From contig VCMS01000351.1 of assembly GCA_022539475.1 (NCBI GenBank), forward strand, positions 38,530 through 93,730: DNA of 55,201 nt. Reading direction: 5' to 3'. The notes beneath the pieces are model-generated. The model saw nothing but the letters and a program-made list of their open reading frames with translations, ran no database searches and was not told the origin of the DNA. Position 1 is the stretch's first letter; each line of letters opens with the position of its first letter. Source of the DNA: Gracilaria domingensis (Eukaryota > Rhodophyta > Florideophyceae > Gracilariales > Gracilariaceae). Of the stretch, positions 20,569 to 55,201 are shown piece after piece. The position numbers and the translations under genes were made by a program.

Positions 20569-20588
20569 CCCCCCGTCTGTCACTGACT

Positions 20589-33224: not shown

Positions 33225-33845
33225 TCAATAAATGACGCAGTAGTTATGAAATACACTGCAATATTTTGTACTACGTAAAAATATATATTCTACATACAGT
33301 TCGTCCTGTTCATGAATACTCTTTGTAGCCATCACCAACAGTATTCTATAGCTTGCGAGTGTACCCAATGTAGTAGCTTGATGCTCGGAGGGCTGTCGAA
33401 TAATAAAGTTTGGTAAGCGGCCTTGGTAAGACTCCATCTCGGCCAAATCCTTCTCTTCGTTCCCATCCCGGTACGAAGCATCACTGATGTAGGCTGCTAT
33501 ACAGAAAGGAGCGGGTACTACCCAGGCAATCGCAGTATTTATTTCGGAATCATAGTGAGGAAGCGTGCTGTACATCTTCCCTTTCAGCTTTACTTCCATG
33601 CAATACCTCCTGAAACGAGAAACGGTGGCACCGAGCACTCCGCTTCCGTATTTCATCTGTTTTGCATTGCGTCGGCTTATGTCATGATATACCAATGTCC
33701 CATAGAAGTACCCCACAACCTCTCCTTCCGAGAACGATCTACTACTGAACACTCCATCTCCACTTATGGGGTTTTTGATGTTTGATTTCTTCCTGTACAA
33801 CCATAAACCTGCTGCTTCAGCGGCAAGCAGAGTCTGTATATACAT
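33225..33845 (-). other. Domain: SET-like protein methyltransferase
   Basis: This 206-codon frame shows GDGVFSSRSFSEGEVVGYFYG, like the GxGvfa-r-i-kGe-i-eY-G start of SET domains. It then shows CIAAYISDASYRDGN with LPNF (the NHSC-PN region, degenerate) and MATKSIHEQDELYVEY (A-x-I-x-x-xEL-x-x-Y). The NHSC Cys and Asn are not conserved, so catalysis is uncertain. It probably forms the C-terminus of the fusion protein, although a separate ORF is possible. Confidence 0.65.
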
Positions 33846-34062
33846 CGTCTCCCATGCGACTTAGAGATTCAGAGGCCACTCGTGCACCGGTTTCTCCTTG
33901 TGCTGCGGGATGATACTAGGTTCTCTCCAGAAAGTTGCGATGTAGGAATTGATATGAAACGGGAAACATTGGTATGGCAGGAATCCTTTCCGTGCAATCC
34001 ATATACGCGAGGTTCTTTGCTTGCTTCTTTTCCGGGAACTTTGTCTGTACTAAGTACAAGGC

Positions 34063-34900
34063 TTAAACGACCTCATTACTGACAGTTATTTTTGCGTTGA
34101 ACTCGTTACCCCAAATCTTCCTCGCATACATCACTACAGCATTTTGTTCAGCATGAGCGAAGCACTGCTCATCCCTCTCACATCTAATGAAGCGTCGGGG
34201 CTCTTCCATGTCCATGCGCGCCAAGGCACGGGAAAATGTTCCACTATAGGGATCAACCACAACGTCGCCGGGATTTGAGAACCTGGCAATGAGTTCCTTT
34301 AGCAGTGCCCTCGGTTTCTGTTCGGTACCTGATCGATAATGCAGTAGTGCCCGGAGTACTGCGTGGGAACGTAATTGAAATTCTTGTAGTTCACCATCAC
34401 CTTCTGCTCCTCGTACGCGTTTCCCTTCCGGACTCCGTGCACGGCATACTCAGTTGCAGAGAACAACCGTGTTTTGTTCCTTCCGGGGTTCTTCAAAGTG
34501 TGCGTACGAGAGCGAATGAATTGCATCGGTGTGGGGTCGACTAAGAACGAAGCACTTTGCCTCTCCACTGCATTCTCCGATTTGGGCTCACGTAGAATCT
34601 CCTCCCAGTCCACGAACTGTTCGATAATACAGAACATTATAAAATGACCGCCAGGGCGAAGCATTGAGGCCATCATTTCTGCAGGATTAACCATATCTTC
34701 GTCGAAAAGCTCATCATGCTCACTGTCACATATACCATAAGGCAGGTCCGTGAGTAGGAGTTGAACATTGCCCTCTAGGGAATTATCGGAAGGGAACAGT
34801 GTACCATGAGCCTCCACTAACTCTTCATAACCAACGCAATGCATACAGAACTGTTGCTCCATGTTCTCTTTGACCACACCGAGAGCCTTCGTCGTCCTTA
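34063..34900 (-). other. Domain: permuted amino-DNA-methyltransferase
   Basis: Motif IV is LLLTDLPYGIC (residues 289-299 of the 35624-34299 frame), a DPPY variant with Leu at position two. It is followed by MLRPGGHFIMFC, typical of the next strand. After a frameshift near 34320 comes KELIARFSNPGDVVVDPYSGTF (split by that shift) with the FxGxG-like motif I, then the acidic E/D of CERDEQCF. Motif IV before motif I is the beta-class order of N6-adenine/N4-cytosine enzymes. Base specificity cannot be read. Confidence 0.78.
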
Positions 34901-36310
34901 CCTCGCCAAAGTCGTGAGGTGGAAGAATACCATCAGGAACATTATAAAAGGGGTGCGCTCTATCTTCGTCATCATCCGTGTCGTTTATGACAATGAAATC
35001 CACCGGACCCGGGTCTGCACCGGATATTTTACCGGATGTTTTACCCACCGCCCTAGCCATTGGCGTGGAGGAAATGGTTCTCTGTGCCCTAACCGTATCC
35101 TCAATCTTCACCGTGACCGTGTTCCTTCCTTCCTGACGTCCTGACAGAGTGGCCCGGGATGGCTGCTGGGAAGGTCTCAGGTTCAGATGGACAATAGCGG
35201 TACGAAGAGTAGCAAAATACTCATCGTAGAAAGCATCTAAACGAGATGGAAAGAGTGTCCGAAGTTTGCTTCGAAAGCCTTTCAGCAGTTCCCACTTGGT
35301 AGTAGCGGGCATTTTGTACAAAACTCCGCTTAAGACAACCTCTTTCAAATCGGACAGGAACTCTTTTGACAAATCCCTTAGTTTGGTATCTATATCATCC
35401 GAAAGGGTGTGAACCCAAGGCACAGTAGCGTTGACCTCTGTGGTTGGCTTCACTTCGATCCCCAATGCGTTGAACACCGATGCTGGGCTGTATCCGGAAG
35501 AACAGGACTCAATTGCGCCGAAAGAAAGCGTCGCTTTCTCCATGGCAAGAAACGGTAACAGCATTTGTTCTGCGTCACGAAACCCAAGACTGGAAGCAAA
35601 GGAATCCCATTCTAGACATACCATTTACACAGCATAACCCATCCGCCTTATGTGCGCTTGGTTTGACATGACGAAACCATCAACAAACGGTACCTGTCTC
35701 ATAGAACCTGTTGCAGTCCTCGCCTTCTTCGCAACTGGAAGTCGCCTCTTCATAGTGACACGCTTCACTAGGGATAGATAGAGCAACAGGTGAAAACGAG
35801 TAGCAGGCTCAATCCGGAAGGTAGTTTTCTCGTCTGCTTGGATCCGGGACCATGCTCTTTGAATAAGTCATTCCAGAACACACGCTCCATAAAAGAATTC
35901 CCGCCATCCACATTCTTATCCAAACTCCATTCGAAAAGATCCCTAGCCCGACGATCCTCACTCCAGTCATCCACGTCAATGATACGGATATACTTGTAGA
36001 CCCGACTTATGAACCTAATATCGGTACTTATCTTCACCAGCTCCTGCGGCGTATAGTTCGCGTACGTGCTCTTCGTAATATTCGTGAGAAATTGCCGTGC
36101 ACAAGCCAGATTGGCACAGTTTGCGACAGCGTACTCAACGAGAGCCATGTACCCAACCTGAGGATGGGAACCAATGCCGCCTCGAGGCGCCGCAAACGAG
36201 TCTCTCAGCTCGAGAAGTATGCTGAACAAACGAAGGAACCGGGTCGCCCTAATATCCTTCTCACCGGAGCTAGACTCCGTAGATGCCACGAAAGATGCGG
36301 TAGTAAACAT

Positions 36311-37038
36311 CGCTCTGCTGTTAAGACCACAGAAAGGTCTGTTTTCGACGGGCGCCAGGTAACTCTCGCAAGAACTCGCGAAAGCGGAATATACAGTGGC
36401 GATGAAACTCGCTGGAGGAGTTCCCGAAATAGTAGTAGACGGCGGTGATGTTATTCTAATTTCGTCTTTGAGCGGGTGTTAGTCGTACGCAGGAGGGTGT
36501 GAATAGGGTTGCGAGAGCGGATATAGAAGGCAGACTTGTGTAGAATCACCTAGTAGTGACCCCCCTGGTGCCCGGATGCGACGTGTTCAAACCGCGGTCT
36601 GGACCGCGGTCAGCAGTCGAGTTCATAGCCGAGATCATGTCCATCATGGCCATGATCTCGGCTATGAACTCCGCTGACCGCGGTCCAGACCGCGGTCTGA
36701 ACACGTCGCATCCGGCTGCCAGAGAAGGGTACCAGAGGGGAACCGTGGGGGTTGATAATGCTGTCTGGTATGCATCTAAACCTTCTACACCGTTTCTAAC
36801 CGCCTATACCACTCTTTCAAAGTGATGCGAATGTTCACGCGAGCATTTCCACGTGCTGCACCACAAATCTGGGATACGAACGGGTGCGACACTTCAACCG
36901 ACAGCGAAACGTGTACCGTGTTCAAACCGAGCGGTTGCACCGTTTGCTGACGTGATCAGAGCATTATACGATTACCGCTTTGTTCTGCATTCAAGCTTTA
37001 TAGGTTTTTCACGAAGCTAAATTCAAACAGGCTATATA
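36311..37038. promoter_or_regulatory. Divergent intergenic region of gene pair, copy 1
   Basis: About 730 bases separate the two divergent starts. The centre is a palindrome (36572-36715). A TATATAA box lies at about 37031-37037, directly against the ATG at 37039, so the true start may be further downstream. No similarity to the copy 2 intergenic sequence is visible by eye; only the palindromic design is shared. Confidence 0.55.
36572..36715. repeat. Long palindrome between the divergent genes
   Basis: Arms 36572-36639 and 36651-36715 are complementary apart from small indels, with an 11-base loop (TCCATCATGGC). Each arm contains two ACCGCGGT palindromes separated by CTGG, and the stem runs from CCGGATGCGACGTG to GAGATCATG. 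It can form a cruciform of more than 60 bp. Confidence 0.93.
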
Positions 37039-40000
37039 ATGGAGCCAAGAGGATTGGGGAACCGGCAGATGAGGGGCTCCCGAAAGCCGCGGAAAGTTCG
37101 CCACCCCATGGCGCCGCATCTTCGAAGTGCAAAGAAGACAAAAGAAGGAGGGAAGAAGAGTAGTGAGGAAGCACAGAATCCGGAGACAAGTATGAGCTCT
37201 AACTCGGGGAAGGCGAAACCCGCACCGGGGGAAAAAGTGACGCTTCTTATCGCGGGAAATGGAGGGGACAAGGTCCCAATTGGCACGGCTGATGTGGTGG
37301 CCATCGGGTCTGCCGGCGACGGCAAAGACTATCGAATAGAAATGCATGGTCATACACTGGAAGGGAAGCCGGGAGAGGATATAGTCGGTATATGGCGAGC
37401 TGATGTATCGAAGGAACTCCATACACCGTACCCGCATCCTTTTACGTGTACGGATGAAGACTCCATTCCGAAGACCGTTGCGGACTTAAACAAGATGGGT
37501 TTCTATGCTTGAGACTTGAACTTCATGGCTTCGGGTGAGACCGTTCAGAACACCACGGCGGAGGTGCCCAGTAAGAAATCAGGGCATACCAATGCGGCGT
37601 CCAAGACAGGAGGGAAACAAGTGCGTATGGTGGAAACACCGAAACCCCCGCGAACACCGAGTGGGAAGCGGTTGTCACCTCAGATAGCCCAGGCCAAAAC
37701 ACCAGGCAAACAACAGAAGAACAAAGAGGGGAAGGAAGTACCGCCCCAAGCGCCTGGGCCTGTGCCTAAAACTCTATCTAAGCAAAAACAGGGCGGTACA
37801 AAGGTAGGAACTGCACAATTGACCACAACTCCAGAGAGTTCGGTCTCTGCATTACGGAAGCAACCAGCGATGAATGTGCAGTCTGGGTCGTCCAGAAATA
37901 GCACTGCTGAAGCGATTGCAAAAGCTGGGAGTCGCAATGGAGCTAGAATGGAAGTTGTGGATGTGGAGGAAGTGGATGATGACGACCTTTTCTTGGTGAA
38001 GGAGAATTTGGCTGGGAACGTCAATGAACTACTCGACGACGGTCATGAATAATTACCTTCGGATGATGTGAATATGAGTCTGGCCTCGCTCAAGTTCACC
38101 CTGTACCATTATGAGTACGAGTCCGTGAAGGTAGACATCGACCTAATCAGAATCCCGGACGCAACTGTGAAAGGGACAGTTCGGGAGCATGTTGAAGCTC
38201 TGAAGGCGGAGATTCGAAGGAAAGGGTTTCTTCAGGCCCTTGGAACGATGAGTGTTGCTACTTTGATCACGGGAAAGTCCGAGAAGGAGATGGTAGAGGG
38301 CAATCGCGTGAAAGTTACGTGTATCCTCATGGATGGGGTTCATCGTCTTGTGTTACTCAAGGAACTATGTGAGGAGGATGAAAACATAAAGAAACTGTGT
38401 AAAGGACTTACCGTTTCCTTATGGAGGAGAAAGGATCGACAAAACATGAAATTATGAGAGCTTCTGAGCCTGAATAATGCTTTGAACGATGGACTGAAGC
38501 AGGCGCGACTTATGAACTTCGCCTACAAGGTTCATTCCATTGTATCCTTTATAACCGCGATAGTTGAAGAGGAGAAGAAAGTGTTGAACAACATGACAAG
38601 GACCGCTGTAACGGGGGCCTTAAGTGTATGCGGAATCATAGGTCAGTACCATATCAGGCATCTATCGAGGTTTGCGGAGATGGGTTTGAAGGTGGCTAAG
38701 AGTCCTCGATTGCTGAAGCATTTGGAAAGTGTGTGTCGGGAGTATAATGAAATTGGTATAACATGTATCTCCAGTGATGAGTTCTTTTCTATGGATGAGG
38801 ACACAACCGATTTCATCGTGGACGCCCTGGCAGCATATTTTGCGAGGAGACGAGAGACCTAACTGAAGGAAGGCTTTGAAGACATACGAAAGTATTTCTT
38901 TATATGCTGCCGCTCTCTAAATGAGCTGGCCGTTGAAATATCGAAAAGAAAGAAACTCTCTCTGAAGGAAGTGTACGAGATGCAGATTGAAGGCACTAGG
39001 TTTGAGAAACTCAAACTTCGTGAGTATCTTGCGACACAGGCCGCACGACTGGAAACTGCTGTGACAAAGAAGCTCTGGGGCGGAAAGATATCTAGAAGGG
39101 TGGCTTATGCTCGTGAAAAGCTGAAGAAGTTCGTCGGGGTGGATTTCAATTCGACTGTGGGGCCGTCTGCCGTTGAAGCGGGAAAAGCGACCACGCCTAC
39201 GACACAAGTCACTAAACCGGATACTCGGGCGTCGCGATCTAAACGTGTTAAGGCGAAGAATGCCCGGGAAGACGTTCAGGAAGTGGTAAGCGACGTGGTT
39301 TTAGTGGAACCAAATGGTGCGGGGTTGAGAAGGAGCACGCGAAGAAGTCGTCGACGAAGGAAGATGATGAGCGATAACAACTCCAGGGCTCAAAAGAAGG
39401 CGAAAGTAAGCAAAGTGCCCCAAGATGAAACATTCGTCATCAATCATCTGAGTAAGCTTGGAGGGAAAGGGTTCACAAGCTTCCTCAAAGCTCATCATAT
39501 CTCCTTCAGCAGCGACACGGACTCTGATTCAGCGCCGAATGTTGAGACGCGAGAAGACGACAGGGATTCTTTCGACGACACAGTCCCGGAAATTCTACCC
39601 CCAGGGCTGAAGAAAGCAGACGAAGGACCTTACGAGAGGGGGGATTCGTGGTTGAAATTGTTGAAAGCAGTTCCTACCAAGTGGCCTGCTGGAGGTGAGG
39701 GATTAAGTCGGTATATCCGTGGATGGATGCGATACATCTCCAGAAGGAGCACCGAGGCCATTTGCTCTCGCCGAACTACTTTAAAGGAGTAAATCATGCT
39801 GTGTTTTGGCATGCTGCGTATCAGGGTCAGAAGCTTCTCGGCGAAGCGGTGGGAGGGGGGAGGTTGATGATGCCACCCTATGGGCACAGGCAGTGAAGAA
39901 AGATTCCGTCACGTATATGTATTTTGTGAACAAGAAGGCTGAGCTTCGGGAGAGAGGTTTCTGTATTTTGGAAGGCTTTGCTTGTGAGAACGACCTTTTG

Positions 40001-40924
40001 AAGATGGCTTAAAGTCCCAGCAAGCTCATTGATGGGGATGTAATCGTCGAGTTATTAGAATTTTTCAAAAAAAGTTTCGAAAAAGCCCCAGACCTCAGGG
40101 TACCAGAGAATAGAACTACATGGATTTCTATAATCAACGCTGACAATGGGAGGTATATGAAGACGAGAAGATGTATAGTGGGTGATCTGGAGAATAGACC
40201 GGAGACGCATTTGCTTGTGAAGAAGAGGACGTTGTTAGATGCTCGGCTTGGTCAGATATGTGCGGCGTTGGGGCTAAAAGACAAGAAGCAACCGAATGAG
40301 AGAATGTATGCATCGAAGACGGGAGGGAGAATCTTATGTACCGGAGTGGCTTTCCAGCGACAGTAACTACATACTGACTTCGAGACCTTGACAAACGAAT
40401 ACAAGCTGGAGGGAAAGAACTCGGGGCACTTCGTGATGGTCTCCAGAACTGTGTCGTTCCCACTTTGGATATGTGAAGGATCCCTCAGTCACTTTGCTGT
40501 AAAAGCAAAGGCATTTGAAGGGTTGGCACGAGGAAAGGTTGTGAGAAAGTTTTTTGTCCCACCTATGTCTGTGTTTATTGGGAGAGGGGATGTATTTCAT
40601 GCCGGTGCGGGCACTAAAGATGGAAGATTCCCGGAAAACCCACTGTTTTGCTACCATATGTATATGGTACCAGAGAAGTACAGTTTGCCGGATGCAGTTC
40701 ATCCGAAACACCATTTTCGACCGACTTTTGCGGAAGAAGACGACCTCATGGGAATGGAGGACAACACAGGTGGTCCTGCGGTGGACATAGAATTGGTGGA
40801 GGATGGAGAGGACGAGGACGAAGAGGATGAGTTGATGGTCGAGGAAGGAGACAGCGACGAAGAAGACGAGAACTATGAATTGCAGGAGATGGAGGAAGGG
40901 ACAGAGGATGGGGAGGAGAACTGA
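37039..40924 (+). pseudogene. ParB-like / 2OG-oxygenase gene, copy 1
   Basis: One reading frame runs from 37039 to 39792, interrupted by in-frame stops at 37510, 38050, 38455 and 38860. A frame change near 39738 leads to a second register that carries stops at 40010 and 40364 and ends at 40924. Order: N-terminal domain (VTLLIAGNGGDKV...), Ser/Pro-rich linker, ParB-like domain with DGVHR near 38331, a helical domain (NFAYKVHSIVSFI), a basic linker (RRSTRRSRRRRK), then a C-terminal oxygenase-like domain. That domain has HTD (about 40371), GRGDVFHAG and YHMYMVPE. An Arg expected before YHMYM is Cys here. An acidic tail follows. Homology to copy 2 holds throughout. Confidence 0.8.
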
Positions 40925-41146: not shown

Positions 41147-42004
41147 TTAGTGTCTAACGTATTTCTCCAATAGATGCCGAGTCTGGGGTCTATGATGCTC
41201 GCCGAGTGCACACAAGTACCTCTTGAGGTTGACCAGTGGTTCGTGCTTGACGATACCGGCACACACAAGAAGTGCAACGAATAGGGTGCTTGTAGGAAGA
41301 GGGGGGATGCCTCTGTACATACAAAACGCTGATGGTTCTAGCGACTGGGAAAGCGTGTGGGAAAAGAATAGTGGGACCACTCTGTTCAAAAACATTCTGA
41401 TGGAGAGCAATACATCATGGAAAAAGAGAGCCATTCTGAAGGAGTGTAGGACACAACGGATGTACAGACAGGGCCTTTGAGTTCCTACGCGGTGCGAGAG
41501 CGGTACAATGTTGTTAATGGTTTTGCCTGTAGAGTAGAGAATAGAGAGTGCGTTCACGACGATAGTGAATAGGCCGAATAGAAATCCACCTGGAAAAAAA
41601 GCTATAGAGGCTGTTCTGACAGAATCTATAAGATTGGACGGGGATGGATGGAGTTGATAGGTGACGAAGATGGAGAGATTGAGAGCGAAAAGGCCACCGA
41701 CCGCTATACCCAAGTATTTATTGGTCAATATGGAGGAGGTGCTCGTCATTTGCGAAGAATTCGTTGGTCCGAGAGCTAGGGTACCGTATCTTGCGGCATG
41801 TAGGGAAAAGGCGAGGTCGAAGAGAATAATGTGTAACATGGTTTCCAGAATGCTATAGAGAATGGTTAAACCTAGCTGAGCATGGCCAGAGAAGCGCTTG
41901 AATAGAAGCGCTTGGGCCAAGACGGGCTTGATGATACCGTAAATCGCGCCTATGGCTACCGTTAACAATGAAGCAAATAACACCATTGAAGGTGGCGAAA
42001 GCAT
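41147..42004 (-). CDS. Predicted multi-pass membrane protein
   Basis: The frame gives 285 residues from the ATG at 42004. Hydrophobic segments suggest five or six membrane helices, at about residues 5-28, 42-66, 94-116, 132-158, 188-210 and 236-252. I recognise no family. The start codon lies exactly at the inner breakpoint of the right inverted-repeat arm, so the upstream region belongs to the repeat. The 5' end of the gene may have been cut off and the present ATG may be internal to a longer original gene. The sequence TTTGCAG just upstream could also be an intron acceptor. Confidence 0.5.
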   Translation of the reverse strand: MLSPPSMVLFASLLTVAIGAIYGIIKPVLAQALLFKRFSGHAQLGLTILYSILETMLHIILFDLAFSLHAARYGTLALGPTNSSQMTSTSSILTNKYLGIAVGGLFALNLSIFVTYQLHPSPSNLIDSVRTASIAFFPGGFLFGLFTIVVNALSILYSTGKTINNIVPLSHRVGTQRPCLYIRCVLHSFRMALFFHDVLLSIRMFLNRVVPLFFSHTLSQSLEPSAFCMYRGIPPLPTSTLFVALLVCAGIVKHEPLVNLKRYLCALGEHHRPQTRHLLEKYVRH

Positions 42005-42367
42005 CGTCTGTGTTCTGCAAAGTGGAATATAGTCTGTTCGCTTTGGAAACTAAGCTAGTTTTGGGGCTATTTGGGGCGCGCGAGGGGGTAGCAGAGGCTG
42101 GCACTCAAAAAATCAAGAAATTTTGGAATATTAAATTCCATCTCGCGCAGTTTAGTTCTTGGGTCCCCTAGTTTTTGTAGAGGTTCTACTTCGCCGCACC
42201 ACCCCATTCACTCTTTTCCGCGACCCTCTCTCAAAACTGCACTCGTGCTAGTTTGCGTTTCCATTTTCTCCCATGTTGCAATGCCAATCGCAACTCATCC
42301 CGCCTCAATCATCCCATCACTTCTTCCCAGTCCACACCACCCCCGCTTTTTACCCATTTCTCGCCCA

Positions 42368-43372
42368 TCACGCGTTCATTTTGTAGAAGTCAGGTGGACA
42401 ACTCTCCCCCTTCTCGTATACCCGCCTCGCCCCAAAACGGCTTCCAATCCCTCCCATCCTTCTCTCCTCCTGTCCCCTCAGAATCCCCTTCGCAGTCCGC
42501 GCTACCTCCGCCGCACTCCTAAACCCAGTCACCACCGGAGCTCCGACTCCCTCCCGCGCCACCTCCTCCACCACCTTCTTCATCTCCTTACGCCTCTTCT
42601 TCAGACGGCTCTTGCCATCCCCAACCCCACCACCCTTTGTCTTCGGTGTCACAGGAGACGCCTTCTGCACCGCCACCCTTCCCACACTTCCCTTCTCCGT
42701 CTTTCCCTCCACACCTCCTTTCACCGTCTCCTCTTCCACCAATCTTTGCCTCTTGCACAGCTCCTTCACCTCCTTCTCCAGCACGTCCAACCTCTCGTTC
42801 AGAACCCTATTCTCCTCCCGCAACTCTCCAACCTCCCTTCCCGCACACTCCACTATCCCATACACATGATTTCTCATCTCCACTCCCAATACCGACAACG
42901 AATTCCGCAGGCTCGAAATCGCCTCAACCGAAACACCACTACCACCCCCACTCAGCACCACACCGCCCATTTCCGTTACAATCTCCACAATTCCATCGTC
43001 CATTTGCTCCTTCATCACCAACCCCAACATCCCCACCCTCGCCTTCATCTCCCCCACAAACCGCATCTCCCTGTCACCCTCTCCGCCCCCACTCTCTATC
43101 TGGTCTCCAACCTCTAACTGACTCAGATGCACCGCACCCCTTCTCTCCATTGCGACCCCCTCCACCTTCAATTCTACCCCCTTTTCCACCTCATCACCAT
43201 CCCCTCTCCTCGCCTCACACTTCTTTCCTTCATCAGCCACTTCCTTCTTCTGCGACATCCGACCAGCCGCCGTAATCACGTCCTCTTCCCGCTTTGGTGA
43301 CGGCGTCTGCGGTACCTCCTCCCCCTCCAACAGCGCCAACAGCTCCTCATCCTTCACGTATCCGTTCGACAT
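42368..43372 (-). CDS. Coiled-coil protein, full length (right arm)
   Basis: The frame gives 334 residues from the ATG at 43372 (MSNGYVKDEEL), continuing 25 residues past the stop found in the left copy and ending PPDFYKMNA. The composition is the same, with the ELREENRVLNERLDVLEKEV coiled coil and a basic KKRRKEMKK patch that could be a nuclear signal. Function is unknown. A long antisense frame (42245-43117) is a composition artefact with proline and histidine runs. Of the two copies this is the one more likely to make the complete protein. Confidence 0.6.
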   Translation of the reverse strand: MSNGYVKDEELLALLEGEEVPQTPSPKREEDVITAAGRMSQKKEVADEGKKCEARRGDGDEVEKGVELKVEGVAMERRGAVHLSQLEVGDQIESGGGEGDREMRFVGEMKARVGMLGLVMKEQMDDGIVEIVTEMGGVVLSGGGSGVSVEAISSLRNSLSVLGVEMRNHVYGIVECAGREVGELREENRVLNERLDVLEKEVKELCKRQRLVEEETVKGGVEGKTEKGSVGRVAVQKASPVTPKTKGGGVGDGKSRLKKRRKEMKKVVEEVAREGVGAPVVTGFRSAAEVARTAKGILRGQEERRMGGIGSRFGARRVYEKGESCPPDFYKMNA

Positions 43373-44723: not shown

Positions 44724-45626
44724 ATGAACTCCCAGTCCGACATGCCTCCCACTCCGCCTCCGAGTCCCAGATACTCTGACGTCCCTCAGGCCTCATCTCC
44801 CGCCCGAAGGACTGGGGCCGTTATTGTTGAAAGGGGGCGTATAGGTACCATGCTGGCGAACGAAGAAGATACGGTCATTTCCGCACACGAATTCTGCAGC
44901 ATGGCTGCTACCTCTCATCTTTCTGATGTACCGATACTAGTTTGTGGAAGAACGAACACCCTGGAGACCGTAATTCAGGCTTGCCCTTATTCGCTCAGAG
45001 AGAATCTCGTTTTCTTCCAGAATGGAGACATCATACCATTGGTTTCGAAGCTCGGTGTGGACAAATGTTCAAAAGTTGTCCTATACGTTGGTGTCCCCTC
45101 AAGAAACGCAGCTCCGCAGGATGGTGTCACTCCTCAAAGTCCGGATGGTCTCACTGTCGCAACAGGAAAGTGGGCCTCCAACGTTGCAGACAGGTTTAGG
45201 TCTATGGGTCTCACTTGCGGGGTTTTCGACGAAGACACATTTCTCGTAAGCTATTATGAGAAGCTCGTGTGGCTATCAACGTTCAACATCGTCGGGGCCT
45301 CAAGAGGTTTCATTCCTATGGACGTAGTCGCTACGGAGTGCAGTACGGTTGTGCTCACAATAATGAAAGAGCTGTTGAAGATAGTTTCGCTTAAGACAGG
45401 TACTACTTTCAACCTGGAAGAGACCGTTGGGCGACTTCTTGCATATGGGAAAACTCTCGTTGGCTTCCCTACTTCTTTCTCCGACTTTCAGTTTAGGAAC
45501 GCGTACTTCTACGACTTTTCCCGCCAAGAAAGAAACATTGTAGGCGGTGACCCCGCTCCTTTTCATACAAACTACGTCAACGTTGTTAAGGAAAAGTTAT
45601 CCCCCTCCCCATTCCCCCAGCTTTGA
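44724..45626 (+). CDS. Ketopantoate reductase-like protein, right-arm copy
   Basis: The frame gives 300 residues. The nucleotide-binding block reads AVIVERGRIG instead of AVIVGRGRIG, so the first Gly of GxGxxG is Glu; NADPH binding should suffer. A 13-bp insertion (TCCCCATTCCCCC-like) near 45600 changes the last residues to SPFPQL. The FFQNG block and the YYEKLVW Lys are kept. I infer that this copy is losing function while the left copy keeps the family motif. Confidence 0.75.
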   Translation: MNSQSDMPPTPPPSPRYSDVPQASSPARRTGAVIVERGRIGTMLANEEDTVISAHEFCSMAATSHLSDVPILVCGRTNTLETVIQACPYSLRENLVFFQNGDIIPLVSKLGVDKCSKVVLYVGVPSRNAAPQDGVTPQSPDGLTVATGKWASNVADRFRSMGLTCGVFDEDTFLVSYYEKLVWLSTFNIVGASRGFIPMDVVATECSTVVLTIMKELLKIVSLKTGTTFNLEETVGRLLAYGKTLVGFPTSFSDFQFRNAYFYDFSRQERNIVGGDPAPFHTNYVNVVKEKLSPSPFPQL

Positions 45627-46253
45627 GGTTAGAACACATGACTTTTCGGTGTTGTAAACCTTTTAGAGATAGTTAAACATAAAAGTTACTTTATCGAAAT
45701 GACCTGTTCCTATTACATTACTTATATTGTTCGTCCTTCTGTGGTTCAAATATGCCCCTTTAAATCCTACATCCCTTATCACTAATACTTCGCTAAGATT
45801 TTGCTAGATAGAAAATGGTCATTCCATATCATTAAAGTGCACGATACTAGTAACGAAACAAGTACAAAAATTGTGATATTTCTGAAGAACTAAGCGTTTG
45901 CATTACTTGGGGCACCCGTATAAAGTAAGGTAAACCTTTTATGGGTTTCAACCCGTAATGGAGGTTGTTTTACTCTTCTTGATTTCTAAGCTCATGTTAA
46001 AGATATTTACAGTTTTCTTTACCCACTTGAACCCGTACATATAATTTATGACTAAATCATCCTTTCTTTACTTCAAATCGATGCAAAAACTTCTCCTCCT
46101 AGTAACGTTTTAAAACAGTACTACAATACCCGTATATGGTCGTTCTTAGACTCTTTTTATACTACGAAAAACCTTGTGACCATCAATCACATCCTTCTCA
46201 TTCGTATACCCACACCCATTTGCAAAACGAACCCTTTCGAAAGCTTTCAAAAC
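45627..46253. other. Intergenic region between reductase and HAD-B (right arm)
   Basis: Counterpart of 2171-2766. It is noncoding and AT-rich, with no additional feature beyond a degraded form of the hairpin seen on the left. Confidence 0.6.
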
Positions 46254-47126
46254 ATGTATAACTCAGAAGTTAGAGCCCAAGAAGTAACTCCTCAGCAGCT
46301 GGCTAACGAAATATTCGAAAATGGCTACGCCGTGATTAGTGATGTTGACGGTACTCTGAAAAGAGCTGGGGAGAACATTCCTGCCGAAACAGTCAAATGC
46401 ATGAAGTACATCAATGCACGCGTTGGTTTCGGAATTGCTACTGGGCGAGATATAGAGGATGCCGAGAGTTTCATGGAGCACCTGGGTGGCTACACTTTTG
46501 GCATCTCTGGAAACCAAGGCGCACGGGTGAGATTATCCAATGGTACCGAAATTGATCAGGACCTTGACAGGGAAGGCTACGAAAGATGTGCAGCCGAACT
46601 TGAGAGACTTGCACTCTCCTTAAATGAATCGCACGGACTTCACGAAGAGCGTCAACAAGCAGTGGTGAGCACTAGAAAAGACAGTGGACTCCCTAACTTC
46701 ACGTACAATGGACTGTCGAAGTGGAAAACAGAAGCTAACTCCGGTATTTCAAAAGTGTTGACATCCTTTCCGAACCTGGTTGCGTACCCTCAAGATGAAA
46801 ACTGTGACATAGGGGACATTCGTTTCACGAAAAATAGTGGGGCGCTAGCCTTGGTTGAAAACGACCCCCAGTTCGACACACATTTAATCGTTGCTTTCGG
46901 GAATGCTTCCAATGATGGTCCTCTATATGAAATGGCAACCCTCGCAGTTCATGTGAAGGGAGACGACCCTCCACCAGCGGTAACATATCTTGTTGATGGG
47001 GTGGAGGACGTGCATGAGACCATCAGAAGGGTGGCAGAACTGTACGGGTACAGAAAATGCAAGTGTCAATGGTTTAGAAATGCTCTTGGAATTTGTTTCA
47101 AGTGCTACGATGCCTTTAATACTTAG
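46254..47126 (+). CDS. HAD-IIB-like sugar phosphatase, paralogue B (right arm)
   Basis: 290 residues from the first ATG (46254). All HAD motifs match the left copy: DVDGTL, IATGRD, RFTKN and GNASND. The few differences (for example Val to Ala in KWKTEANSG and changes in the last residues) avoid the motifs. Both copies look functional, unlike HAD-A. It converges on the HAD-A pseudogene with about 50 bases between. Confidence 0.82.
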   Translation: MYNSEVRAQEVTPQQLANEIFENGYAVISDVDGTLKRAGENIPAETVKCMKYINARVGFGIATGRDIEDAESFMEHLGGYTFGISGNQGARVRLSNGTEIDQDLDREGYERCAAELERLALSLNESHGLHEERQQAVVSTRKDSGLPNFTYNGLSKWKTEANSGISKVLTSFPNLVAYPQDENCDIGDIRFTKNSGALALVENDPQFDTHLIVAFGNASNDGPLYEMATLAVHVKGDDPPPAVTYLVDGVEDVHETIRRVAELYGYRKCKCQWFRNALGICFKCYDAFNT

Positions 47127-47178: not shown

Positions 47179-48038
47179 TTATGAATCATGGTGGTTTTTA
47201 TCGTGCTGCTTTTCCTCGTAGCCGTACAACAGAGCCACCAACATAATTGTCGAATGTACATCCTCCACGCTTTCGAACAGGTTGTGTACTTCACCCGGGA
47301 TACAATCTTCTTTGACCTGAACGCCGTACACGCCTACCTCATGCAAAGGCCCGTCGCTCAAAGCACTTCCGAACGTCACGACGTCATCCGTATCAATAAA
47401 TCTCGGTTCATTATCCACAAGATTTTCTCCTCCGCTTCCTTTTGTGTATCGCTTGTCCACAATTTCGCAACTTTTATCGCCGGGATAGATAACAAACGCA
47501 TCCATCTTCTGCAACAGGTCCCCAATAGCAGAATCCACTTCTTCTTTCCACTGCCACAGTTTGTTGTACACGAAATTGGGAAGGCCACTATCACTTCTGG
47601 TCTCCACGAACCCCTTGTCATCATCATTCACAATACCATGCCTCCTATTCAAATCCCTTGCCAGGAACAGTAGTCCGTCAACAGTGTGGTCAAGGGTGTG
47701 ATCATTGAATGCACCCTTAATTTCCCTCTCGTCAGAGAAACGCAGGAAAGCTCCATGATTCGCCGAGACACCAAATTATAGTCTCCGAGTCCTTCCATTT
47801 TCCCCTCCACGTCGCCCACATCACCCCCTGTGACAAGTCCGAAACCAACACGTTCGTCAATGAACTTCATACACTTCACAACTTCTTCTGGAATTGACTC
47901 TCCTTCTCTTCTCAACGTTCCATCAACGGAACTTAATATACCGTAACCATTGGCATATATGAACTTAGACAAGGTATTTGGTGAAATGTCCGCCAAGTCT
48001 CTCTGTTCCTCTGCCATTTTTCCTGATACAGTCACCAT
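47179..48038 (-). pseudogene. HAD-like paralogue A, frameshifted (right arm)
   Basis: Same gene as 385-1245, but a single-base deletion in the run corresponding to GACTATAAGTTTGG (near 47777) shifts the frame. The first 86 or so codons (to GLGDY) are in one frame and the rest (NRRHGIVNDDD onward) in another. The SVDGTL motif lacking the nucleophile is present here too, so loss of that Asp predates the duplication. Confidence 0.85.
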
Positions 48039-48352
48039 ACTGCCACAAGTACCGCATAGCAGGAACTGTATAGACTTCTCAGTTTCATACTTCTCTTAAA
48101 AGCAACCTTAAGTGCAGTTTCAGAAATGTTAGGACGCTACATGTTCAATTGCGAATTGACTGGTGCCACCAATGATGTTAACGATACCGAGCATTTGGCA
48201 TGTTGCAATTAGACGCAACTGGACCAAAGACGTTTGACATTTGTTCAATTACCAGCCTGCCGCACCTTTTCTATGTTCATATGTATAGCCTTGTAATAGT
48301 ATACTACTCTTAATACTCGCAAGACACACATAATTTACTAATCATCTCATTC

Positions 48353-48988
48353 TCATCCACTTCGAGGCGCTTGCAGCCTCATTATTGGCAAATCGTCATC
48401 ACTACTACTCTCGAGCACTTCGGTTCTACCGGCGTCCGCTTCCACACCAATCTCCACGACCACTTGGTCTTCGTCCATGTCAACCGCCCCACCCTCCTTA
48501 TCGGACAACAGTTCATCCTCCGCCTCCTCCTCCTCGTCACCATTGACAAACGTGGGTCGGAAATCCCGCACCCGATGAACAGCATCAGGTAGTGCGTAGC
48601 CCTCTGGTACCATGTACATGTGGTATCTAACCAGCAAATCCATAGACTCGGGCCTATCCACCTTGTCCTTCCCACTTGCTCCAGCATGTGTCACATCACC
48701 ACGGCCCACGAATACAGAGTACGGTGGGATGATTATCTTCTTCGCTGGATACACCTCCGACATCACTCGCAACTGTTGGTTGTTCATCCCCACCAGTTGA
48801 TGGCTTCCAGCGCTCACCCAGAGAGGAAAGCCCTCTTTCCCAGAGGCCATTACAAAGTATCCGGGGTTGCCAGTATTCATTGTTTCCTTCGTAACCAGAC
48901 CACTGAAGTCGGTGTGCAGCGTCTGGCGCTTGCACTTTCTCGTCGTCCCCAGAAATCGACCACCAGTTTTCGGAGTGTACATCTTCAC
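48353..48988 (-). other. Domain: 2OG-Fe(II) oxygenase-like
   Basis: The H-x-D (HTD), distal His (THAG) and Arg (VRYHMY) order, spaced about 80-110 residues, fits a double-stranded beta-helix dioxygenase. The acidic serine tail follows. The family could be DNA- or protein-acting. I do not place it in TET/JBP or any other named family from sequence alone. Confidence 0.55.
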
Positions 48989-50899
48989 AGCTTCCCTTTC
49001 ATTGACCCATAGTCTAAAGCCGCAGCAATTGTACCCATTCGAACATCAAGTAAAGCACGCGACCTTACAACCCACCTGAGCTCCTCATTATCCTCCGGCT
49101 TCTCCACCGTACCCCAACGTGTCGACATCACTCTCCCCTCAAATGGTCCATCGCTACCGTCCTTCCATCCTTCATCATCGTTGATTATTTGAACAAACGA
49201 CTTCTGTTCCTCTCCTTTCCGTATATCCGGCATCGCTCCATACACGTTCTCGAAGAAGTCCACCAACTTCCCCGACACATCTCCGAACTCCCGAACTTCT
49301 TCCAACTCCTCCCATTTAGGGACACCATTATCCGTCGCAAACCATCAAGCACGCAATATCCATTCTGCCTTAGCTCAGCTTGCATTCGGGCGAAGAACAT
49401 TTGCCCAAATTCGTCATGCTCCTTCGCAGCAACCCACAGCACCTCTTCATCATCCATACCTGTCGGTCGAGTACGAGGATACTGCATACCAAATGTCTCC
49501 GCCCGTAGGCGATGTTCAGCCCTTGCAGCGTGGCCAAAAGACAAGATGGTGTACATCTCTGAGATTCGAGACACTTAGCAGCTCCGACCTATGTCCCTTC
49601 GGCAAGTGAATGACTCTGAGCCAGGGGTCCTTGTGCTCAATTACGTTCTTCCCTTGCCATTCCTGCGGTCTCAGCCTGGCATACCCGCACCATGATGGGT
49701 TCGGTGGGCCATCATATGGGTCACCTCGAACAAGTCCGTGCTCCTCATATTCCGGAAGAGCTGTAGGTAACTCGTCATCAAATGACCCCCCACCTGTCTC
49801 TTGCTGATCGTCTGGCGCAGCATCTTTCTCGACGGTGACAACCCGTGGAACTGTCACAGAAAGAAGCTCATCGTCATCCAAAATGCAGAACTGCCTGCGT
49901 TCTCTGCATTCGCTCCATCTCCCAATGCCACGAACGAACCTTCATCGACCTTCCTCTCAGCACATGTTCATTTAGTTGAGACATCAGGTCATCCGGTGTC
50001 ATGCTGTTCAGAGTAGATCTCATCTGTTGTGTGAAAGTCTTTCTCCGTTTCTTCCTCGGCGGAGCCCGCTGTTCTTCTTCAGAGCTATCCAGAACTTCTA
50101 TGGCACCTCGATTTCGGCCGTGCTCAATTTCCCTATAACTCACTGCGCCCGTTCTCGTGCACTTCTTCGCGGCTCCCCTTCTTCACTGGCAGATGTTGCA
50201 GCAGCAGCAGCGGGAGTCCTCCTCTTCGTCACGGACTGCTTCACTGGTGCGGGGGGCGGAATTACCTTGAGCATCGTCCGCAATCGATTCTGAACGGAAG
50301 TCGTGGCAGTTCTAATTGAGTTCGTCCTGCTCCGAACACGCGACAATGTGTTGAAGTTCACAACTTGTCCCAAAAGGAACTGATACACAGCTGCGTTGTT
50401 GTCTGGGTTTCAACGTCATCTTCATTCGATGGAGCAGAAAGACTGACTTCGCGTTTCAGGAACACTTCCATGGACTCTTCCTCGTTCAGTTCATTCCTCA
50501 CTGCTCTAGCCGCGCGGAACAGAGACACTGCTCTATCATAAAAGAAACCTCGAACCTCCTCAAAGCTTTTCCATTGCTTTGTCTTCGTCGACTTGCCCTT
50601 CAATAGAAACATCTGAAGACAATCAAGAATGAAGGAAAACTCCTCGGCATCCAAAACATATAGCGGAGTATGGGACAGATGTGTGAGACCTATGTCACTC
50701 ACAGTCTCACATATATCCTCGAAATGGGCCAGCATTCCCTCACGAGACATGAGTTGCAGGGCGACATTGGCATATCTCAGGTACTGACGCTCTTGCACAG
50801 TCCCAATCAGTTGGCTCTCCTTCAACACTTCTGTCACTTCTGCAGGATCCACGTCTGCCGGCGTCACCCCCTCAACATCTTCAATTAGAATGGCGACCA

Positions 50900-51360
50900 C
50901 ACTAACTATAGAGTGTATCTTGTCTGCAAACATCATCCTTCGCATGGTACTCGTCGACTCATTGAGGTACGAAGCAACACATAACAATTCCTTCATCCCA
51001 ATGGGCCTCCCATCTCTTCGTATCAGCAGATTGCAACGCCAAAACTTGGCTAATCGCTTCCACTTCGGTGCACCAGTCGCTGCCAAATATTGTATAGCTT
51101 TCAGACGATGCAAACCATCTACAATGAAGCACTTCTTCGTTAGGCGTCCCTTGTCAGTATCCCTCTCTCCCGTAGTAGCATCTTGTAAGGCCACCACTGG
51201 AGAACCCATCGACTGCAATATCCCCCGCTCCTCCATACTCTTCACAAGGGCTTCAACGTGGCGTTTACTTACTCCACGGAGTAAATTGGGCGGAGTGTCC
51301 ACCAGAGTGATGTCAACAGTAACAACAACCATCCGGTACTGATTGAGGTTCACCTTTGGT
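50900..51360 (-). other. Domain: ParB-like nuclease fold (DGxHR)
   Basis: Residues about 308-435 of copy 2: VTVDITLVDTPPNLLRG, SKRHVEALVKSMEERGILQ, then KKCFIVDGLHRLKAIQYLA and FWRCNLLIRRDGRPI. This is the ParB/sulfiredoxin-like arrangement, where a strand, a helix that sets the element in place, and a D/G-x-x-HR or ERR loop bind nucleotide. ParB proteins bind CTP and DNA, and related domains are found beside DNA-modifying enzymes in phages and mobile elements. Exact activity here is unknown. Confidence 0.7.
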
Positions 51361-52324
51361 ACCTTCTGACGAATTCGTCTGTACGTCTTGCTCCGAGTAG
51401 GTGTCCCTTGTGTTCCAGACCGCTCGCCAGAAACACTTGAACGTGCCATTCTTGCGGACAGAAGCACAACGTCATCGTCCTGCTGCTCCGCAGTTTCTGG
51501 TGCAGTTTGGGGTACAGATGGACCAGCTCCTTGCGCGGATTGCGCATCCGCGTCTGGAAGGGGACCTTTCATGATCTCATCTTCCTCCTCTTGCACAGCC
51601 GTCCCCTGCTGAACCGTCTGTTTCGACGCAGAAGATCCCCTTGTGTCGACGGTCTGATTCATCGCAGGAGAAGCCCTTTTCGACGCAGTGGGCTTCGTAG
51701 CGGAGGTAGACTTTGTTTGACCTGTCCGCTTCGTAGCTGGGGATGCTCTCGTCTCCATAGACCGCTTCGTAACAGACGACGGACCTGCCCGCGGAGGTGC
51801 TACTGATGCGCTACCTCTCGGTGTTGATGAACTTCGAATTGGCTCCGTGCGGCTTGTCGGCGTCATCACCTCACTCATAGCGCTCACCGTTCCTCGCTTC
51901 GACGCCGGAATGCTGGCTGCCACCGGTTCCATCATTTTCTCATCCCAAGGAGCGGCCGTCCGGAGATCCTGGATATATTGTGGAAGATCCAGGCCCTCCG
52001 CCCGGTAAGGGTAGAACGTCTGACCGCTTCGACTGATGAGAATATTATGAACCACCACAAGACCTGGGTCCAATTGCTTCCCGTGCAACTCGCGGCGTAG
52101 AACACTTCCAATTCCATGCAACAACGCTTCCCCGACTATCACCTTTCCTTCATCCTCAATATCCATCTGCAGAGAAACCCGCATTCCACCTTGCAATAAT
52201 CGAGTGCTCCGCCGAGTGCGAGGAGTCACGCTTTGCGTACGCTTTCGAACACGAGTTGGCTTCATGTTGAACAGCTATTGCAGTGAAAGGTGTATATCAA
52301 CAATACGCTCGCTCTGGACGATAC

Positions 52325-52433
52325 AACAACGGAGGCGAGCCTTTAAATGGCGACTTACGCTGGGCACCCCCGCTTTCGGCAGCTCCTCCCAGCGCACTGC
52401 CAGTCTCGTCCGTGTCCTGTCCGTGGCCGCTCG
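52325..52433. repeat. Promoter-side inverted repeat, left copy
   Basis: It matches 53562-53665 in reverse orientation almost base for base, from AACAACGGAGGCGAGCC through TTTAAA to GTCTCGTCCGTGTCC. One short indel (CTGTCCGTGG) is present. It reads outward toward the oxygenase gene, giving both genes the same core promoter sequence. Confidence 0.92.
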
Positions 52434-52795
52434 CACACTGATTGTACGCTTTAGAGTCGTGGAGTTCGCGCAATGATGACTCACGCGAGCAATGGTCGCG
52501 TTCTCAATCATGCTCTTCAAATGCTTTGCATAGTAGTCAAGAGTACACTCATTCACTTCCATGTACAGCCTACTCCCGCAATACACGTGGACAGCGGCGC
52601 CAACGTACCGGCGGCCGGGTGTAGCGAAATCACTGCGCGGCGGCGTGTTTTGGGAGGTCCCGGGAAGGCACCGGAATGTGGCCAGAACGTGCCCGCGGGC
52701 GGGGGGGTCGGTCGTGTTAGGGTAGGTACCCTAACACGACCGGACCCCCCCGCCCGCGGGCATAAAATCGCACATTTTTCAAAAAATCGCCCAAA

Positions 52796-52875
52796 ACGTG
52801 CCCGCGGGCGGGGGGGGTCGGTCGTGTTAGGGTACCTACCCTAACACGACCGACCCCCCCCGCCCGCGGGCACGT
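52796..52875. repeat. Perfect 80-bp palindrome
   Basis: ACGTGCCCGCGGG at one end and CCCGCGGGCACGT at the other, with 39-base arms and a CC centre. Eight Gs on one side face eight Cs on the other. I checked it base by base from the sequence. Confidence 0.95.
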
Positions 52876-53135
52876 TCTGGCCACATTCTGGCACCCTCCG
52901 GAGACCTCCCAAAACACTCCTCCCGGCACTTCCTGTACCCACTGCGTCACCTTAGTGCACCATCCCGTCATCTTCACCCTCCAGACACTCCCTAATTTCC
53001 GGGATGGTGCACTGAGGTGACCATCCCGTCTTCTCCACCCTCCAGACACTCCCTAATTTCCGGGATGGTCACTGAGGTGACGCAGTGGGTACAGAAGTGC
53101 CGGGAGGAGTGTTTTGGGAGGTCTCCGGAGGGTGC

Positions 53136-53243
53136 AAAAAATCGTCCAAAACGTGCCCGCGGGCGGGGGGGGGTCGGTCGTGTTAGGGTAGTACCCTAAC
53201 ACGACTGGACCCCCCGCCCGCGGGCACTTTTGGACGATTTTTT
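53136..53243. repeat. 108-bp extended hairpin
   Basis: The third hairpin of the array has longer arms, because AAAAAATCGTCCAAAA on the left faces TTTTGGACGATTTTTT on the right, outside the shared GTGCCCGCGGG stem. There are small mismatches in the G/C runs and near GACTGG. Confidence 0.9.
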
Positions 53244-53518
53244 GAAAAATGTGCGATTTTATGCCCGCGGGCGGGGGGGTCCGGTCGTGTTAGGGTACTA
53301 CCCTAACACGACCGACCCCCCGCCGCGGCACGTTCTGGCACATTCCGGCGCCTTCCGGAGACCTCCCAAAACACTCCTCCCGGCACTTCCGGCAGTGATT
53401 TCGCTGCACACGCCGTGCACATATATCAAACTAGAGAAAACTAGCGCTTCACACCCACTTGATCCGCGACTTTTAGCACAATACGGGACCGTTGCAATAG
53501 CTCCGAATCGCGACGTGG

Positions 53519-53560
53519 CCGACACGCGACGCTATCGCTCCGACACGCGACGCTATCGCT
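53519..53560 (+). repeat. Two 21-bp direct repeats
   Basis: CCGACACGCGACGCTATCGCT occurs twice without spacing, next to the right promoter-side inverted repeat. The arrangement is that of an iteron or operator pair, and no factor is known. Confidence 0.9.
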
Positions 53561-53561
53561 C

Positions 53562-53665
53562 CGAGCGGACACGGACACGGACGAGACTGGCAGTGCGCTG
53601 GGAGGAGCTGCCGAAAGCGGGGGTGCCCAGCGTAAGTCGCCATTTAAAGGCTCGCCTCCGTTGTT
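53562..53665. repeat. Promoter-side inverted repeat, right copy
   Basis: Counterpart of 52325-52433, ending 12 bases before the ATG at 53678. The TTTAAA box lies 30 bases before that ATG. The shared sequence is therefore a candidate core promoter and 5' leader of both divergent genes. Confidence 0.92.
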
Positions 53666-53677
53666 TGCGCTGAAGCG

Positions 53678-55201
53678 ATGGATTCCACCGATGTTGGAGA
53701 GGAGATACATCCTATCGACATGAGTGCTCCGCCTCCGGCGTTCCATGCATATGTCAGACTTTTCTTGGTTCTTCGCGATGCTTTGGCAAACAGCGATGGA
53801 GGCCCTGATCGGCCACGGGACGTGGGGTTTAGAGGGTTAATAGAGTTCTGCGCCGAGAACTATAAGGATATTCCGGAGGCAAGGAAGATGTTTGAGGAGG
53901 CCACTAACTCCAAGAACCTGCAGAACTTGACACTGCAACAGCTGCGAAAGAGTGTTGTGAATAACAAACCTGTGGAACAGCGATATCTTGTAACGAAGCT
54001 TCTTGACAAGAAGGACGGGGATGAGGACCAGAGACTGCGCGATTTTTTCCTTCTCTCTATGGATATGGGTATATACCTACCGGTGCGATGCCTGGTTGGT
54101 TATTTCATGACCAGGAGAAAGCAGGTTCTGAAGACGACAGTGTTCATCCCACCAACAGCTGTGAACCCATTTGAGGTCGTTATATACTTATCATACCTCG
54201 GCCACATAATGGGAGAGAACGACAACATCCGAATGATGAAGAAGAAACAACCGAAAAAGAAACGAAAAGTGAACCATGCACCATCTGTGTACATACCCAC
54301 TTTTACGTCGTTCTCCAAAGACAACTGTGATCGACTGGGATTCGCTATCAGTGAGGTCGTATGGGCATGGAGTTGTTTTGCGGCTCATCTTGGATACACG
54401 AACGTTCAGCACATGGTGAAACCATACATTTACATGAATATGCAGACGTTGAAGTATACAGCGCTAGAGACACGGGAGTCTGGTTATGCCCCGCCGAGCC
54501 AGAGTACTCGATTCAACACAAAGGATGTGCCACAGAGCAGTACTAGTGGATCGGTGGAGACCTTGAGTGATGAATGCGATACAAACCTGCGAATACTGGC
54601 TAAGGAGTTTTTGACAGACCTCGAAACCATATGCACCCACGATAGCCTCTATAGCTTACGGGTTGATCAGATGAGGAACTGGATAGAGTTTTCGGAGATA
54701 CGGATGGATACCGTATCTAGCTCTGACTCCGGTGAGTTGCCTGCTCGATTTCAGAAGTTTTCGGAGTTGCTATGGAAACCGATACAGGATATGCGTCATG
54801 CGGCAGGGTTCCATGTCGGCATTCACGCGAAACCTGATATTGAACTGACGAAAACCCCTAAAACTTCCGGTAATGCCGAACCTTCTTCGACCAAGTCTGC
54901 CCCACCCCACCTCGTCGAGAGTATATGAACCTCGTGAGCTCCGATAGCGACGAGTTCGAGAAGCCGGTGAATCTTGCGGAGCATGAATCTCGGGTTGCCG
55001 GTTACAACATCCAAAAGACTGGTATTGAGCCGCCCATGAAGGGGATATCCAGTCTCCTTCGAATGAATATGGACAAGGTGTGGAAGGGGATGAGAAGTCA
55101 CACTTTGTAGCGTACAACTGTGACATGAAGGACCTGAGGCACACACACGAAACGTTTGTGATCAGAGTGAGATTTTATGGGTGAGCGCACAGCTTGTCAT
55201 A
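53678..55201 (+). pseudogene. DNA methyltransferase-SET fusion gene, copy 2 (N-terminal part)
   Basis: An intact 416-residue frame (53678-54928) corresponds to the N-terminal domain of copy 1, for example FHAYVRLFLVLRDALAN, DRLGFAISEVVWAWSCFAAHLGYTN and TLSDECDTNLRILAKEFLTDLE. A Lys-rich stretch (KKKQPKKKRKV) resembles a nuclear localisation signal of the SV40 type. After the TGA at 54926-54928 homology goes on in another frame (54925-55110), then shifts again (HFVAYNCDMKDLRHTHETF against FCMHCVGYEELVEAHGTLF). The methyltransferase and SET domains expected downstream lie beyond the window. Confidence 0.78.

Follow-up and report, generated by a model that had tools for sequence, protein, structure and literature searches.

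A 55,201-nucleotide stretch of the genome of the red alga Gracilaria domingensis (C351:38530-93730 in an assembly of 77.9 Mb and 680 contigs; hereafter the window) carries copies of a giant Plavaka/CACTA-type DNA transposon, an autonomous cut-and-paste element represented by two families, A and B. This kind of transposon is already known; what is new is a predicted fusion of an amino-DNA-methyltransferase with a SET domain, and the promoter system that pairs its gene with a divergently transcribed partner. The partner, hereafter ParB-2OG, codes for a protein with a likely ParB-like (DGxHR) region and a putative domain resembling 2-oxoglutarate (2OG)-dependent oxygenases. As far as sequence can indicate, a transposon with such a pair may chemically mark both DNA and chromatin by its own means.

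The methyltransferase-SET gene and its partner

A preliminary description of this DNA had claimed homologous head-to-head gene pairs at two places in the window, and both the reading frames and the cross-copy comparison bear this out: the genes stand head to head in copy A (33225-36463, - strand, and 37039-40924, + strand) and in copy B (48353-52265, - strand, and 53678 to the edge, + strand), and the corresponding pieces are ~30-40% identical by sequence comparison in the window. The methyltransferase-SET layout proposed for both copies was recovered in intact relatives of the decayed copy A; in B the methyltransferase-SET gene stops before its methyltransferase and SET parts, which lie beyond the contig end and were read in two other loci, L029 and L050. 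L029 belongs to the same family as window copy B and bears a broken methyltransferase-SET gene, and L050 is intact and 99.7% identical to window copy B over 1779 bases. That B lacks a working methyltransferase gene is ruled out by the open frame of 1055 amino acids (aa) in L050.

Domains were assigned from natural intact frames, namely L009 (family A, 1121 aa), L033 (a third family, A', 1118 aa) and L050 (B, 1055 aa), plus the relative P0002 (1001 aa). N6_N4_Mtase (PF01555) and SET (PF00856) were both matched in all four relatives (Pfam, E ≤ 0.01), with best E-values of 4.3e-17 and 1.7e-7, respectively, and the fusion anticipated in the preliminary description is thus solidly predicted. The solved chains closest in sequence to the methyltransferase part are the bacterial beta-class adenine methyltransferases DpnA (1.2e-5) and CcrM (3.6e-5). 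The DPP[YF] motif (IV) precedes the [SA]GTFS motif (I) in 4/4 relatives, and the motif order is therefore that of the beta class, as in DpnA and CcrM; unlike these enzymes, the protein described here is fused to a SET domain and an N-terminal domain and is borne by a eukaryotic transposon. The SET end motif, usually ELxxDY, reads ELYVDY, EIYVDY, ELYFNY and ELFVDY across the four relatives, with N for D in B. Of the pieces of the window's own decayed copy A, the one from SET narrowly missed the Pfam cut-off (3.1e-4) and the one from the methyltransferase had no Pfam match. P0002, which lies on a 6.6-kb contig and is 29% identical to the A protein, was the sole match at E ≤ 0.001 in 5.8 billion sequences (7999 candidates scored); the methyltransferase-SET fusion thus also exists elsewhere, be it in another genome or in a distant family. 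A search of bacterial and archaeal genomes for relatives yielded nothing.

The partner gene is open over 1326 aa in A' (L046:204-4181), and B copies elsewhere hold ParB-2OG frames of 1308 aa that are stop-free across the match. Its DGxHR motif, DGAHR in A' and DGLHR in B, stands within a region that is conserved across families and is likely ParB-like, and the C-terminal motifs LHTDF, GSH, GRGDVxHAGA and YHMYMVPE are common to A' and B. The full-length protein had no match among 5.8 billion proteins; with a piece of 670 aa as query, a single protein, from G. domingensis, was matched. A scan of the ParB-2OG protein with Pfam gave no match to TET/JBP dioxygenases. Pfam includes a TET/JBP model.

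Divergent pairing, promoter palindromes and selection

Conserved divergent pairing had been set beforehand in the preliminary description as a point on which the proposal should be refuted or kept, and the pairing was found. Once short or fragment rows had been excluded (34/74, 9/55 and 9/50 in the methyltransferase-SET lists; 11/77 and 0/69 in the ParB-2OG lists), the merged loci comprised at least 104 methyltransferase-SET loci and at least 135 ParB-2OG loci (66 A-type and 69 B-type, some partial). Among the matches listed, all 45 pairs less than 8 kb apart are divergent; 48 divergent pairs and 1 convergent pair are found within 13 kb, and of the pairs within 16 kb, 51 are divergent, 2 are tandem and 1 is convergent.

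The promoters between the two genes contain large palindromes. In four A copies, exact self-complementary arms or palindromes reach maximal lengths of 39, 44, 44, and 64 bases; the A' promoter holds 76 bases as a single palindrome (arms of 38), one of the A stretches of 44 is likewise a single palindrome, and two copies of the B promoter have exact inverted-repeat arms of 93 and 65 bases. By the same measure, control stretches of these loci (289 of 1400 bases each, promoters possibly among them) gave a median of 11 and a 95th percentile of 30. Between A and A' promoters, the palindrome is the only significant alignment (86-94% identity over 30-56 bases, E 4e-12 to 3e-8; next-best alignment, E 0.045), and it aligns although the genes have diverged to near-saturated synonymous divergence (dS). 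A 23-base half-site of this palindrome, with up to 2 mismatches, occurs at 241 sites in the genome vs 0 for the control. From 59 of the 100 sites listed, 40 clusters were formed, 31 of which lie within 6 kb 5' of a listed pair gene; 17/40 stand 5' of both pair genes and 9/40 are without a listed neighbor. The B palindrome differs and is built around CGTGTTAGGGTA..TACCCTAACACG in four copies. Co-divergence of a reader protein and its palindrome would fit this pattern, which comprises just two palindrome classes.

Words were compared among the promoters at window 52266-53677 (B), L009:4886-6320 (A) and L033:3301-4470 (A'). A longer word common to the three was ruled out: of words with 6 or more total occurrences, a pair of 7-mers recurs in every promoter, but not one 8-mer, 9-mer or 10-mer does. 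GATC, GANTC, and CATG are not raised in all three. GCGC reaches 10.5 (A), 6.0 (A') and 5.7 (B) per kb vs ~2.0 in the rest of the loci, ACGT reaches 6.3, 7.7, and 5.7 per kb vs ~3, and CG is also raised in all three, as counted without a shuffled control; this excess may reflect a higher G+C content or target words.

The ratio of non-synonymous to synonymous substitution (dN/dS) between A and A' is 0.10 for methyltransferase-SET and 0.17 and 0.18 for two ParB-2OG pieces. Within families the ratios are higher, reaching 0.80, 0.71, and 0.93 for methyltransferase-SET in three pairs of A copies, and 0.55 (A') and 0.45 (A vs the window) for ParB-2OG; they are 0.52 for the A transposase, 0.28 for the HAD gene and 0.68 for the coiled-coil gene. 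The high ratios among A copies are those expected of decay, and many individual copies would thus be dead, whereas the low ratios between A and A' indicate that the pair genes were constrained while these families diverged. Window copy A is decayed, with stops and shifted frames, and lacks stretches of ~46 and ~75 bases that are present in most other fetched copies. Introns were ruled out as the source of these two differences, since L009 is continuous in one 1121-aa frame. Most of a 1.0-1.2 kb stretch is also absent from the promoter of window copy A, and likewise from that of L022.

The carrier transposon

The preliminary description had found no match to a named class of element, a claim that did not hold. 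The B-family transposase (932-aa part, one protein) matches the Pfam Plavaka family PF18759 at 4.1e-20 (72.7 bits; cut-off 26.3), by which an unnamed class is ruled out, and the accessible part of an earlier account reports enlarged En/Spm elements of 16-20 kb with 4-5 open reading frames (ORFs) in Chondrus crispus (PMC6431247; Kojima, Bao and Jurka 2013, Repbase Reports). Likewise red-algal, CACTA-like and of similar size, these elements are probably of the same kind as that of G. domingensis, and their ORFs may already include the gene pair. In the window, the A transposase pieces are 33-57% identical to the B-family transposase, and another A copy reaches values as high as 70%. To the eye, the sequence also shows CxxC and HxxxH-like motifs, candidates for the C(2)C and H(3-4)H motifs of Plavaka transposases.

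The claim of a selfish, multicopy element was well founded: beside the transposase and the many copies, the 12-base terminus CGTCTGTGTTCT occurs at 305 + 296 = 601 genome sites vs 7 + 7 = 14 for its reversed control. Element A opens with CGTCTGTGTTCT at 25009, and the identical motif stands at the end of B (42005) and of a second B element, B2 (6405). B insertions begin exactly at the terminal motif, both inside A (window; L010:9133) and inside a B-family transposase gene. With the B transposase as query, the best 49 of 1699 candidates (query included) span at least 931/932 residues at 96-100% identity, and 45/49 of these places are stop-free, most in frames of ~1100 aa. For copy A, the DNA at the methyltransferase end was found, among the best 40 of 111 candidates scored, at 39 other places with 87-93% identity. 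B would thus be young and A older.

Both gene pairs are embedded in larger elements, A starting at 25009 (25009-42004, decayed) and B, nested inside it, extending from 42005 to the window edge (55201), which is the contig end (Table 1). The repeat that contains copy A extends far past the gene pair; on C440, the right terminus of an A copy lies ~2.2 kb past the position equivalent to 42004, and an element copy with both termini on C36 is ~22.5 kb long. A and B have in common a core order of transposase, coiled-coil protein, methyltransferase-SET, promoter and ParB-like gene, and their cargo is family-specific: A (and A', by eye) carries a hydrophobic protein, and B carries two HAD-like genes plus an unclassified gene. 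The two HAD-like hydrolase genes of B (window 46056-48095 and 301-2368) point at each other and are 45-53% identical, the better one matching Hydrolase_3 at ~4e-13. The coiled-coil-like gene between transposase and methyltransferase-SET is homologous in A and B, and two pieces of the A protein gave no Pfam match over cut-off; a gene similar in looks to the terminus-proximal coiled-coil-like gene of B stands at the same place in the A copy on C440.

Further nesting was observed around these elements. A third B copy sits in the B2 transposase gene (L032, L029; C351, left of the window), and B thus nests in B too. The DNA outside the right end of the C440 A copy (joined L031, L025) is 83% identical to window 45661-45834, which places this A copy within a B-like element that has diverged. 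Window positions 6400-25008 contain nested pieces of Copia-type retrotransposons (RVT_2, SH3, rve, gag_pre-integrs) with many repeats of ~90% identity, into one of which element A was apparently inserted.

Table 1. Features of the window, in window coordinates.
Feature	Positions	Strand	Remarks
Second B element (B2), part	1..6405	-	98% identical to 42005-48436 reversed; gene pair left of window
Left terminus of element A (CGTCTGTGTTCTCGTTCTGC..)	25009..25030	+	Recurs at B, B2 and the right end of the C440 A copy
Element A Plavaka/CACTA-type transposase gene, broken here	27156..30202	+	Homology to B-family transposase
Element A coiled-coil-like protein, no family assigned	30237..32753	-	Relative in B
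Element A predicted N-terminal domain + beta-class amino-DNA-methyltransferase + SET, decayed	33225..36463	-	Domains from intact relatives L009, L033
Element A divergent promoter with palindrome	36480..37038	.	~1 kb shorter than most fetched copies
Element A ParB-2OG gene (likely ParB-like DGxHR region, putative oxygenase-like domain), decayed	37039..40924	+	Intact A' frame L046:204-4181
Element A hydrophobic protein	41147..42004	-	Similar one in A' by eye; no Pfam match
Terminus of element B inside element A	42005..42059	+	Same end at other insertions
Element B terminus-proximal coiled-coil-like gene	42371..43471	-	Noise-level Pfam matches only
Element B cargo gene, NAD-binding look by eye only	44379..45623	+	Scanned part 44724-45623 without Pfam match
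Element B HAD-family hydrolase cargo gene	46056..47123	+	Pfam Hydrolase_3 3.8e-13
Element B second HAD-like gene, two frames here	47182..48095	-	Homologous to first; counterpart 385-1242 Hydrolase_3 2.4e-4
Element B ParB-2OG gene (likely ParB-like region, putative oxygenase-like domain)	48353..52265	-	3' part split over several frames
Element B divergent promoter, nested inverted repeats	52266..53677	.	93-base exact arms
Element B methyltransferase-SET gene, 5' part (N-terminal domain)	53678..55201	+	Cut by contig end

Possible roles of the gene pair

The interpretation that we favor, as slightly more likely than not, is that the transposon stays active by marking the bases and histones of its own promoter, the partner serving as a site-specific reader or eraser. 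The ParB-like protein would bind the family-specific palindromes in the promoter common to both genes, and the methyltransferase-SET protein would methylate amino bases there, yielding N6-methyladenine (6mA) or N4-methylcytosine, and would also methylate a histone. These marks may put the promoter into an active state, so that expression of the element continues, and the putative 2OG domain of the partner may remove or edit marks, either silencing marks of the host or those of the element itself, so that the gene pair would act as a self-regulating write/erase switch. Activation is favored on two grounds: the great success of family B, and the position of 6mA in green algae, which is found just downstream of transcription start sites and may coordinate with the trimethylation of lysine 4 of histone H3 (H3K4me3) (PMC12636532). 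More tentative, and on balance doubtful, is a complete self-addressed epigenetic system, in which a single dual base and histone writer would act with a ParB-like protein that finds the palindromes and edits the marks, reader and palindrome co-evolving between families. Bacterial partition proteins, which co-evolve with their sites, offer an analogy for such a reader and its palindrome.

Several observations weigh against the self-activation reading. The activity, target base, histone residue and DNA binding of the pair are at most predicted from sequence. The SET match is divergent, at best 1.7e-7, with 2.6e-6 in L033 and 1e-4 in L009, and the stretch at the position of NHxCxPN, the usual conserved SET motif, reads GYINDA in three relatives and AFINDY in P0002. 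The ParB-like domain claimed in the preliminary description was recovered by profile search in one family and weakly, as a PHROG ParB-like match at 6.6e-4 to residues 309-352 of one B protein (50361-52265 frame); a second match in B reached 0.063, the A' piece had no ParB-like PHROG match, and neither the Pfam scans (A', A, B) nor the NCBIfam scans gave a ParB-like match. For the 2OG-like domain, what stood is the conservation of motifs between A' and B; Pfam, PHROG, NCBIfam and Protein Data Bank (PDB) searches gave no oxygenase match, only noise-level matches to unrelated families, and the domain, barrel-like to the eye and proposed from motifs alone, is possible. Among the matches listed, 59/104 methyltransferase-SET loci are partnerless within 8 kb, which may be an artefact of listing scope and contig ends and would then speak neither for nor against pairing there. 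The inverted repeats of the shortened or deleted A promoters, of 16 (L022) and 24 bases (window), fall within the control range. The selection test between families compared A with A', B being left out, at dS values of 2.7 (methyltransferase-SET) and 1.6-1.9 (ParB-2OG) that are near saturation, and dN/dS between the B and B2 ParB-2OG genes is 1.28. Target-site duplications, which measure 2-3 bp in Plavaka transposons, vary here, with apparent lengths of 3 bp in 1/5, 2 bp in 2/5 and 1 bp in 2/5 of the A-type end pairs, and of 3, 2, 1, 0, and 0 bp by eye in the B-type end pairs, whose ends are possibly of different elements.

Other roles can be envisioned for the same genes. The methyltransferase-SET protein could mark element DNA (e.g., newly replicated vs old DNA) for the timing or targeting of transposition rather than for expression, a role played by Dam methylation for the bacterial transposon Tn10. 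A beta-class amino-methyltransferase near DpnA and CcrM by sequence, traveling with the transposase in both A and B, agrees with such marking, but the SET domain and the divergent-promoter palindromes are left unexplained by it, and we regard it as unlikely. Rather unlikely as well is the silencing of self or rivals, whereby repressive SET and base marks would limit copy number and the partner would relieve them; self-restraint is known in other elements, and nested insertions (window, L010, L032) indicate crowding, whereas the many near-identical B transposase copies speak against strong self-silencing. The divergent two-gene layout with a modification enzyme also resembles restriction-modification systems, as would be expected of an addiction or immunity cargo module in which the methyltransferase shields element DNA from a partner acting on unmarked DNA. 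Since no nuclease domain was matched in the ParB-2OG protein (Pfam, PHROG, NCBIfam) and the SET fusion is again left unexplained, such a module seems improbable. Least credible of all, to the point of being nearly dismissed, is an endogenized virus: the element is large and multi-genic, and methyltransferase and SET genes occur in giant viruses, but it bears terminal repeats and a transposase of the Plavaka family, its nested insertions are exact, no viral hallmark over cut-off was seen inside A or B among the subset of frames scanned, and viral contigs held no relative of the methyltransferase-SET protein at the search sensitivity used.

Transposons carrying a single chromatin enzyme are already documented. 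The likeness to Plavaka (CMCT group: CACTA/EnSpm-Mirage-Chapaev-Transib) resides in the transposase (PF18759). Plavaka termini read CATCA..TGATG (PlavakaB) or TGT..ACA (PlavakaA) and those found here read CGTCTGTG; as only C.TC is common to them, a separate lineage is likely. The element also differs in its red-algal host, its size of ~20 kb and its methyltransferase-SET and ParB-like pair in place of TET/JBP. According to the accessible parts of one account, TET/JBP dioxygenases, which are chromatin enzymes, are carried by many lineages of fungal DNA transposons, some Plavaka families among them, and the HarbingerS and MuDR elements of oomycetes (Phytophthora) carry SET genes; the latter belong to other superfamilies, and a fused DNA methyltransferase goes unmentioned in those parts (PMC12730594). 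Similarly, the Plavaka-flanked giant repeats of Amoebidium are rich in tyrosine recombinases, with matches to recombinase genes that include red algae, and the available text mentions no methyltransferase-SET gene (PMC11244446). Plant VANDAL elements and their VANC anti-silencing proteins likewise provide element-encoded, sequence-specific counter-silencing, but with different element and protein families and with no writer enzyme named in the available text (PMC10398659). A literature search, partial in its sources and with Repbase Reports outside its reach, returned no description of a methyltransferase-SET fusion on a transposon.

Retained across at least three families of elements (A, A', and B), paired head to head over large palindromes with a putative reader or eraser, and under purifying selection in the comparison of A with A', such a fusion would represent a portable write/read/erase unit. 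It would offer a way to ask whether methylation of adenine or of cytosine at N4 serves red algae as an active mark, and whether mobile elements, beyond evading chromatin states, also construct them.

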